From Betaproteobacteria bacterium (GTDB lineage Bacteria > Pseudomonadota > Gammaproteobacteria > Burkholderiales > Casimicrobiaceae), in contig VBCG01000150.1 in the NCBI GenBank assembly GCA_005881895.1, forward strand, positions 1 to 45,100: DNA of 45,100 nt. Direction: 5' to 3'. Position 1 is the stretch's first letter; the number at the start of each line of letters is the position of its first letter. The position numbers were made by a program, and so were the translations under genes. The notes under the pieces were generated by a model that worked only from the letters and a program-made list of their open reading frames with translations, was not told the origin of the DNA and did no database searches. Positions 30,439-32,659 of this stretch are shown here, in pieces.

Positions 30439-31014
30439 TCAGAGCTTGCGGACGAGCCCGATCATCACGCCGAAGATCTCGAGCGCGCCTTCCGGGCGTA
30501 TGACCGGATAAGCTTTGTTTTCGGGCCGCAACACGAACTGCCCGCCTTCGAGATCCAAGCGCTTCAAGGTGAATTGGTTGTCGACGATCGCGACGACGAT
30601 TTCGCCCTTCTCCGCGGAGACACGTTTTTCGACGACGACGAGGTCGCCATCGAGAATGCCGGCATCCTGCATCGAATCGCCCTTCACGCGGACGAGCACC
30701 GTCGAGGATGGGCGTTCGATCAGGTAATCATCGATCGTGACGGCATCCGCTTCGGCATCGTCGACCGGATCGGGCAGCCCGGCACGCACCGGCGTCGCGG
30801 CGAGCGGTCGGGCAAAGAACCGGCTGGTCGGGGCAAGGCGGCGATCGGGGGTCGATTCCAGATATCCGGCGAGCTTGAGCCGTGCGACAAGCGCCGCGAC
30901 GGACGATTTCGATCTAAGCCCCAGCAAGGTGCCGATGGATGCGTACGACGGTAGCGCCCGATGGCGGGCGTAATAGTCCTGGAGACTTGCCAGATAGGAA
31001 CGATCGTTCGCCAT
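30439..31014 (-). CDS. lexA: LexA-family autoproteolytic repressor (S24)
   Basis: A 191-residue protein. The N-terminal winged-helix region (1-65) has the LexA layout ALPSYASIGTLLGLRSKSSVAALVARLKLAGYL. The scissile Ala-Gly is A78-G79 in VRAGLPDP, the nucleophile is S114 in KGDSMQDAGILDGD, and the general base is K151 in FTLKRLD. It is therefore a complete RecA-stimulated self-cleaving repressor. The start ATG at 31014 is set by MANDRSYL; the longer track ORF is a shadow of the divergent gene. The promoter overlaps two CGAAC-N4-GTTC-type palindromes, so it probably represses itself. No Shine-Dalgarno is seen and the predicted transcript begins at the ATG. Known betaproteobacterial LexA uses CTGT-N8-ACAG, so this is likely a second, distinct LexA. 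Confidence 0.88.
   Translation of the reverse strand: MANDRSYLASLQDYYARHRALPSYASIGTLLGLRSKSSVAALVARLKLAGYLESTPDRRLAPTSRFFARPLAATPVRAGLPDPVDDAEADAVTIDDYLIERPSSTVLVRVKGDSMQDAGILDGDLVVVEKRVSAEKGEIVVAIVDNQFTLKRLDLEGGQFVLRPENKAYPVIRPEGALEIFGVMIGLVRKL
30998..31010. promoter_or_regulatory. LexA-box-like operator A inside the lexA 5' coding end
   Basis: GAACGATCGTTC is a perfect 12-bp palindrome of the form GAAC-N4-GTTC, covering codons 2-6 of the LexA-family gene. Its centre is 31 bp, about three helical turns, from operator B. A repressor bound here would block the predicted start of transcription. Confidence 0.6.
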
Positions 31015-31020
31015 GGCGGT

Positions 31021-31050
31021 AGAATAGCGAACGAACGTTCGGCGTGTCAA
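31021..31050 (-). promoter_or_regulatory. Sigma70 promoter of the LexA-family gene with operator B in its spacer
   Basis: On the minus strand TTGACA (31050-31045), an 18-bp spacer and TATTCT (31026-31021) form a good -35/-10 pair. The spacer contains CGAACGTTCGTTCG, whose complement CGAAC-GAAC-GTTCG (31028-31041) fits the Gram-positive LexA box CGAACRNRYGTTYG at every position. The start point, about 7 nt beyond the -10, falls on the ATG at 31014. The transcript would therefore be leaderless, in line with the absence of a ribosome binding site. Confidence 0.65.
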
Positions 31051-31057
31051 TACCGGC

Positions 31058-31069
31058 GTTCTGTAGAAC
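31058..31069. promoter_or_regulatory. Third palindrome in the lexA / nuclease divergent region
   Basis: GTTCT-GT-AGAAC is an inverted repeat with the half-sites in the opposite order to operators A and B. Its centre lies about 29 bp from operator B and 34 bp before the GTG of the nuclease gene. It may be part of the same control region or a chance palindrome. Confidence 0.3.
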
Positions 31070-31102
31070 TGCAGACTCCTCGGCGTTGCCCCGGGATGAC
31101 CA

Positions 31103-32659
31103 GTGCGCCTTTTCGCTCCTTCGCTTGCCTTCGTCGACCTCGAAACGACCGGCACGCGCGCAGCGCGCGATCGCATCACGGAGATCGGCATCGTTCGAGT
31201 AGACGCCGACACCGACGGTGGCGTTCCGCAGGTGACCGAATGGAGCTCGCTCGTCAATCCGGGCATCGGCGTTCCGGCGGCGATCGTCGCATTGACCGGC
31301 ATCACGGACGCTATGATTGCCGAAGCGCCATCGTTCGCCGCACTTGCGCGAGACATTGCGCATCTGTTGAGCGGCTGCGTCTTTGTTGCGCACAACGCCC
31401 GTTTTGACTACGGCTTCCTCAAGCACGAGTTCGCGCGTCTCGAGCGGAGCTTTACGGCGCGCGTGCTGTGTACGGTGAAGTTGTCGCGCCGATTGTTTCC
31501 CTATGTGCAAGGACACAACCTCGACGCCTTGATCGAACGCCACCACCTTCCAGTGACCGATCGCCATCGCGCGCTCGCCGACGCGCGGGCGATTTGGGAA
31601 TTTGTGCAAACGCTGTATCGCGACTTTCAGGCCGACGCGATTGAGATCGCCGCAAAGCAAGCGCTGCGCATCGCGAGCCTGCCGCCGCAATTGCCCGAAG
31701 ACACGCTCGATACGCTGCCGGAAACGCCCGGCGTCTACCTGTTTTACGGCGAGAACGCGTTGCCGCTCTATATCGGCAAGAGTATCAATGTGCGCGATCG
31801 CGTCGCGGCGCACTTTTCCAGTGACTGGCGCAGTGAAACCGATCTCCGCTTGTCGCAAGAGATTCGCCGCATCGAGTTCGAGCAGACAGCCGGAGAATTC
31901 GGCGCGCTGCTCCGCGAAGCCCAACTCGTCAAAGAGCGCATGCCGCACCACAATCGGCTGCTCCGACGCAAGACGGAAGCAGGCGTGCTGATGTACGCGA
32001 ACGATGGAACGCCGCTGTTCGTACGCGCGCACGCCGTCGAACCGCGCGAGCTCGCGGGCTCGTTCGGTCCGTTCTCGTCGCGATCGGTCGCGGGTGAGGC
32101 ATTGCGCTCAGTCGCTGCTGAGCATCGCTTGTGCTGGCGGCGACTCGGACTTGATCGGCGGCGCACCGGTCCGTGCTTCCAGCGTCAACTCAAGCGTTGC
32201 GCGGGATTCTGCGTGGGCGAAGAATCCATGGATTCGCATGACGCACGGCTCGCATTTGCGCTCAACCGATTCTCGATTCCCGCGTGGCCGTATGCCGGAC
32301 CGGCCCTTTTTCGCGAATGCGGCGCGCCGCTTTCCGAGCGGACGGAAGTCCACATGTTGCAGGACTGGTGCTGGCTGGGAACAGCGCGCGATGACGGCGA
32401 GCTCGGCGCATTGCTCGAATCACCGCCGCGGCCGCAGTTCGACATCGACGTCACGAAGCTGCTGCTCCGCCGTCACGCCGCCGGCGCGCTCCAGCTGATC
32501 TCGGTGGGACCACGCGCTGAGCTGGAATTGCCCTCTAGCGTCGCGACGCGTGCGCGGCAAGCACATCCGCCACACATGCAGTCAGTTTTTTCGCATAAGG
32601 AACATGCAGAAATTCGTTCGGGCCATGCGCGTTCGATTGCGGACCGAGCACGCCGGTAA
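31103..32659 (+). CDS. DnaQ-type 3'-5' exonuclease fused to a GIY-YIG (UvrC/Cho-like) nuclease
   Basis: A 518-residue two-domain protein. Residues 5-175 are a DEDDh exonuclease: FVDLETTG (D12, E14), FVAHNARFDYGFLKHEF and HRALADA (H155, D160). Residues 205-290 are a GIY-YIG endonuclease: GVYLFYGENALPLYIGKSINVRDRVAAHF, as in UvrC and the SOS-induced Cho. A cysteine-containing stretch CFQRQLKRCAGFC follows, like the UvrC region after GIY-YIG. The start is the GTG at 31103; no ATG fits. It is divergent from the LexA-family gene and shares its operator region. The C-terminus overlaps the M20 peptidase gene by 125 nt; a plus-one shift near 32520 would end it at the TAG at 32536, so a late frameshift is possible. 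Role inferred: repair incision and exonucleolytic trimming. Confidence 0.85.
   Translation: MRLFAPSLAFVDLETTGTRAARDRITEIGIVRVDADTDGGVPQVTEWSSLVNPGIGVPAAIVALTGITDAMIAEAPSFAALARDIAHLLSGCVFVAHNARFDYGFLKHEFARLERSFTARVLCTVKLSRRLFPYVQGHNLDALIERHHLPVTDRHRALADARAIWEFVQTLYRDFQADAIEIAAKQALRIASLPPQLPEDTLDTLPETPGVYLFYGENALPLYIGKSINVRDRVAAHFSSDWRSETDLRLSQEIRRIEFEQTAGEFGALLREAQLVKERMPHHNRLLRRKTEAGVLMYANDGTPLFVRAHAVEPRELAGSFGPFSSRSVAGEALRSVAAEHRLCWRRLGLDRRRTGPCFQRQLKRCAGFCVGEESMDSHDARLAFALNRFSIPAWPYAGPALFRECGAPLSERTEVHMLQDWCWLGTARDDGELGALLESPPRPQFDIDVTKLLLRRHAAGALQLISVGPRAELELPSSVATRARQAHPPHMQSVFSHKEHAEIRSGHARSIADRARR

Follow-up and report, generated by a model that had tools for sequence, protein, structure and literature searches.

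A noncanonical LexA with a predicted operator in its own codons is the probable master repressor of the SOS response in an uncultured soil betaproteobacterium that also carries a classical LexA

The window analysed here, by which we mean the whole stretch of 45,100 nucleotides, comes from the genome of an uncultured soil betaproteobacterium (4.29 Mb in 260 contigs) and contains a lexA gene whose product very probably serves this organism as its master repressor of the SOS response, as a LexA of the Sideroxydans/Gallionella type predicted to act via GAACGNNCGTTC. The initial annotation had described an autoregulated LexA with GAAC-N4-GTTC boxes at its own gene in a betaproteobacterium, and had supposed that there were two LexA proteins with different operators. 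Both of these points stand, but the window LexA had been taken as the extra one of the pair, and since the box is found at recA, at a helicase gene and at some uvrB genes, and a classical LexA is found with imuA and without CTGT-N8-ACAG, this hierarchy is reversed and it is the classical protein that looks like a mutagenesis-cassette LexA.

The lexA gene is located on the minus strand at 30439–31014 with an ATG start at 31014, and encodes a protein of 191 amino acids with a LexA-like winged-helix N-terminus and an S24 protease domain. The protein scores 20.3 bits against the LexA winged-helix domain PF01726 (E 0.00047; curated cut-off 23.7) and misses the curated cut-off of the lexA equivalog TIGR00498 (104.2 bits compared with 110.95 bits), with the window-type LexA of one congener scoring 111.4 bits. 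Taken alone, the S24 domain matches the UmuD model with 109.4 bits and the LexA model with 89.1 bits, and among solved structures E. coli UmuD is nearest to it. When aligned to UmuD, the cleavage site A78–G79 and the catalytic residues S114 and K151 are all present, as had been claimed, and RecA-triggered self-cleavage of the protein is predicted.

Both of the GAAC-N4-GTTC palindromes reported earlier at the start region of lexA were confirmed. Predicted operator 1 (GAACGAACGTTC, 31029–31040, no strand) is found in the lexA promoter, within the spacer that separates the −35 and −10 hexamers, while predicted operator 2 (GAACGATCGTTC, 30998–31009, no strand) covers lexA codons 2–6; as had been described, the two centres are 31 bp apart (approximately three helical turns), and both sites fit in 43 bp. 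The promoter itself (31021–31050, minus strand) was recovered in a consensus scan which agrees with the earlier reading of TTGACA-N18-TATTCT, with the −35 hexamer TTGACA at 31050–31045, an 18-bp spacer and the −10 hexamer TATTCT at 31026–31021. It has 10/12 consensus matches (shuffles average 0.0) and is the sole promoter-like site of the region, and lexA orthologs have comparable promoter hexamers. It should be noted that the number of sites in the window is not significant by itself, as the window has no GAAC-N4-GTTC sites besides these two, approximately 1.0 is expected, and two or more were found in 24 of 100 shuffles, and that box matches with two mismatches occur in the window at chance level. 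Their clustering is significant, with a chance of two such sites in 56 bp of roughly 8e-7 by a Poisson estimate.

Conservation provides a stronger proof that the boxes are real than this site count. A scan of genome contigs for homologs of the window LexA returned 78 loci, and of the closest 62 in which upstream boxes were scored, 58 have GAAC-N4-GTTC no more than 100 bp upstream of lexA in the position corresponding to operator 1. Within the close clade, which comprises 20 loci and the window, the operator 2 core is identical at the DNA level in 21/21 orthologs, and codons 2–6 are synonymously invariant throughout, whereas synonymous invariance is seen at 3/54 of the codons at positions 7–60. 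Operator 2 also uses rare codons, with GAT, CGT and TCC accounting for only 33%, 15% and 24%, respectively, of the codon usage for the corresponding amino acids in this set of genes. Invariance which is maintained through rare codons and is so infrequent elsewhere indicates that selection acts on the DNA and not on the protein alone.

We made further observations at individual homologous loci. Two homologs (L058 and L059) are located some 594 bp before imuA and have other palindromes upstream, GTGTACGTTCGTACAC and TTGTACTTAAGTACAA, and these suggest a possible operator shift inside the window-LexA family. A second window-LexA paralog with its own GAACGATCGTTC box is found in one congener (L183, G014:C7:307195) where it adjoins a divergent gene that is possibly part of a mobile region. 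At three loci (L054, L055 and L062) a umuD gene is found directly 3' of the window-type lexA, and in another family of the order a window-type lexA and a UvrD-like helicase are divergent neighbours (L322, G023:C5:188179 and 188959) with GAATGTTTGTTC and GAACTCTTGTTC in the intergenic region between them.

The placement of the box across the genome and genus points to a wider role of the window LexA. Six GAACGNNCGTTC sites are found in the genome, two of them intragenic, and this loose motif is not enriched genome-wide (6 vs 10 for the reversed control); the loose GAACRNNYGTTC motif is likewise uninformative (20 vs 26 in the control). Only the tight core GAACG[AT][AT]CGTTC combined with gene context is informative, and this occurs four times in the genome, twice at lexA, once at recA and once at a UvrD/Rep-like helicase. 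The helicase box is found approximately 43 bp upstream of the gene (C168:16995), and GAAC-N4-GTTC is present upstream of 8/8 helicase orthologs found in the genus, with our own genome included in this number. The recA gene is split over two contigs in the source genome, with the box at C259:185, read on the opposite strand, preceding the RecA N-terminus at the contig end and the remainder beginning contig C42. This site had also been considered as the promoter of a WYL/YafY-like regulator, which was dropped because the opposite strand reads recA. In the same genus the box is found at recA in all 13 genomes with an anchorable recA start, and uvrB carries the box in G001 (two copies), G002, G014 and G015, with no box at uvrB of the source genome. 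The site of typical beta- and gammaproteobacterial LexA proteins is CTGT-N8-ACAG; this is not enriched in the genome (10 sites vs 35 for the reversed control), and is absent from both lexA genes and from recA in the genus.

The genome encodes only two S24 proteins, the window LexA and the classical LexA (lexA2), which scores 223 bits to TIGR00498 and sits in a cluster with imuA. The initial annotation had raised the possibility of a second, canonical lexA, and while this has been found as a classical protein, there is no CTGT-N8-ACAG site at the gene. Instead, the lexA2 promoter and those of genus orthologs (L099–L123) have a palindrome, TACCG-N10-CGGTA, with some variation, which in the source genome is TACCGcatatccataCGGTA (G000:C51:8423–8440; L001, L117). 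The same palindrome is found just upstream of dnaE2, which we identified by eye from its N-terminus (G000:C82:33581–33598; L279), and also in G006. Of the genes before which the initial annotation thought the GAAC box might recur, the tight core is found at recA, and at the helicase as well, but lexA2 and dnaE2 carry TACCG-N10-CGGTA. This motif appears to be a candidate operator of the classical LexA, with lexA2 and dnaE2 as its putative targets, and we found no description of it as a LexA operator in the literature searched, the coverage of which excludes most subscription journals. Window-type LexA proteins are found in 16 of 18 same-genus genomes, and 14 of these also have a classical LexA above the cut-off. 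Further afield, both types occur together in at least ~11 of 150 sampled genomes of the order, by a hand count among the matches listed.

We also note that uvrB and a radical-SAM gene (SplB/PA0069-like, identified by eye) have the GAAC box in some congeners and TACCG-N10-CGGT-like sequences in others, as if the regulator had been swapped. The G012 uvrB promoter (L207) has ACCGTTAATCTATACGGT in place of the GAAC box, and the radical-SAM gene has GAACGAGCGTTC in G015 (L187, G015:C11:66539) and ACCGTATATCCGAACGGT in G006 (L261, G006:C49:1587).

Divergent from lexA in the window is a gene on the plus strand (31103–32659) identified by family matches as a fusion of a DEDD exonuclease and a GIY-YIG (Cho/UvrC-like) nuclease. 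This exonuclease-Cho gene is the divergent neighbour of lexA in 14 of 20 close loci, and in Nitrosovibrio it is found directly upstream of lexA on the same strand, with no box in the stretch of DNA examined there. No plus-strand promoter was found for the gene in the window by consensus scan, and at three loci (L012, L016 and L064) it is gone and the lexA boxes are kept. From its position, co-regulation of the exonuclease-Cho gene with lexA is plausible.

The initial annotation had described the boxes as Gram-positive in type, and this holds for the operator and not for the protein. CGAAC-N4-GTTCG is the operator of the Gram-positive LexA/DinR, and the 14-mer around operator 1 (CGAACGAACGTTCG, 31028–31041) is a full match to the Gram-positive CGAACRNRYGTTYG operator. 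However, the protease domain of the window LexA does not group with those of the tested Firmicute and actinobacterial LexA proteins. In both of the trees we constructed, the window-type sequences cluster together with UmuD on their side of the tree, apart from classical LexA proteins (support of 100/100 and 98/87), and in the second tree their separation from the LexA proteins of Megasphaera, an actinobacterium and proteobacteria is supported at 100/97. The classical side of these trees includes E. coli LexA, and the second tree adds Megasphaera, an actinobacterium and Elusimicrobia but is without B. subtilis LexA. As the trees are rooted only at the midpoint and rest on a short alignment, the domain can safely be called UmuD-related but not derived from UmuD. 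The Gram-positive likeness, as judged from these trees, is confined to the operator, and since such a box is found here with a UmuD-related protease domain, it probably arose by convergence. Outside the group, the S24 tree places a LexA-like gene from Paceibacterota (L069) closest; this gene has GAACGTTCGTTC upstream, which is a hint of a possible transfer between distant phyla.

An exception to the canonical LexA box in the betaproteobacteria was already published in 2015 (Sanchez-Alberola et al., J Bacteriol 197:2622, as cited in PMC8565304). That study reportedly described a noncanonical type of repressor in iron-oxidising betaproteobacteria which has SOS genes as its targets, with the LexA proteins of Sideroxydans lithotrophicus and Gallionella said to recognise GAACGaaCGTTC and to be unrelated to the standard betaproteobacterial LexA. 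This operator is exactly matched at 31029–31040, at the window lexA itself, and homologs with 60–66% identity to the window LexA are found in Gallionellaceae, Hydrogenophilales, Thiobacillaceae and Nitrosovibrio (the 66% homolog, L035, is from a Gallionellaceae MAG). We therefore place the window LexA with the Sideroxydans-type noncanonical LexA proteins, an assignment judged by the reported motif and by the Gallionellaceae homologs. The window LexA and the type reported in 2015 appear alike in motif, in standing apart from the standard LexA, and in having SOS genes as targets, with boxes found here at recA and other SOS genes; they appear to differ in that here a classical LexA of the imuA cluster coexists and a second predicted operator is found in codons 2–6.

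The presence of two LexA proteins is also known from other bacteria. General and imu-specific LexA proteins are separate in P. putida (PMC3901139), and Xanthomonas has two lexA regulons (PMC9578287). The system described here is like these LexA1/LexA2 pairs in having two LexA proteins with distinct sites, one of which is linked to the imuA–imuB–dnaE2 cassette (PMC9578287, PMC3901139), but differs from them in that a noncanonical LexA with GAAC boxes takes the general role and TACCG-N10-CGGTA is the candidate operator of LexA2. The window LexA can also be compared with UmuDAb of the Moraxellaceae, another UmuD-related S24 protein which acts as a DNA-damage regulator (PMC8565304). The UmuDAb regulon is reported to be minimal and to include mainly error-prone polymerases (PMC8565304), whereas here recA and a helicase gene carry the box.

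In the mechanism we propose, a LexA dimer would bind GAACGNNCGTTC, and at its own gene would occupy one site between the −35 and −10 hexamers and another some three turns downstream in codons 2–6. Occupancy of both sites, perhaps with cooperation between them, would shut off lexA transcription, and through the same box recA and the UvrD/Rep-like helicase would be silenced here, as would uvrB in those congeners that carry it. After DNA damage, RecA filaments would stimulate self-cleavage of LexA at A78–G79 via Ser114 and Lys151, releasing these genes. The separate classical LexA of the imuA cluster would control lexA2 and dnaE2 through TACCG-N10-CGGTA. We consider it reasonably likely that the SOS response is split in this manner between two unrelated LexA proteins, with a repressor that has a UmuD-related protease domain and an operator in its own codons running the general response via GAACGNNCGTTC, and the classical LexA having shifted to TACCG-N10-CGGTA and keeping the mutagenesis genes lexA2 and dnaE2.

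Other explanations need to be weighed against the window LexA as master repressor. It might be a second, local regulator of itself and perhaps of the exonuclease-Cho gene, leaving the classical LexA to run the SOS response, and the far higher score of the latter as a LexA (223 bits) and the frequent adjacency of the nuclease gene would fit with this. We regard such an arrangement as very improbable given that recA and the helicase carry the box both here and genus-wide, the absence of CTGT-N8-ACAG at lexA2 and recA in the genus, and the three loci which retain the lexA boxes with no nuclease neighbour. Somewhat less improbable, though still unlikely, are overlapping regulons that trade targets between species so that neither LexA is strictly the master. 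The replacement of the GAAC box by ACCGTTAATCTATACGGT at the G012 uvrB and the different sites at the radical-SAM gene in G015 and G006 are in keeping with this, but lexA, recA and the helicase show the GAAC box only, and lexA2 the other motif only.

That the window gene encodes a true Gram-positive-type LexA, laterally acquired from a Firmicute or actinobacterium, is suggested by the full CGAACRNRYGTTYG match of operator 1, but we give this little credence as the S24 domain groups with UmuD, is split from the Megasphaera, actinobacterial and proteobacterial LexA proteins with strong support (100/97), and has E. coli UmuD as its best solved relatives. Least credible of all is that the palindromes are due to chance or are a by-product of coding: although their number in the window is not unusual by shuffling, the box is kept by nearly all of the homologs scored (58/62), codons 2–6 are synonymously invariant, and the box is found again at recA and the helicase.

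Taken as a master repressor, the window LexA shows that the noncanonical SOS system published for betaproteobacteria in 2015 reaches into a soil clade without cultured members, in which the operator is now cleanly placed genome-wide. It also provides a natural example of two LexA regulons with distinct motifs cohabiting in one organism, and in codons 2–6, where the operator is kept despite codon bias, a regulatory site and coding sequence clearly overlap.
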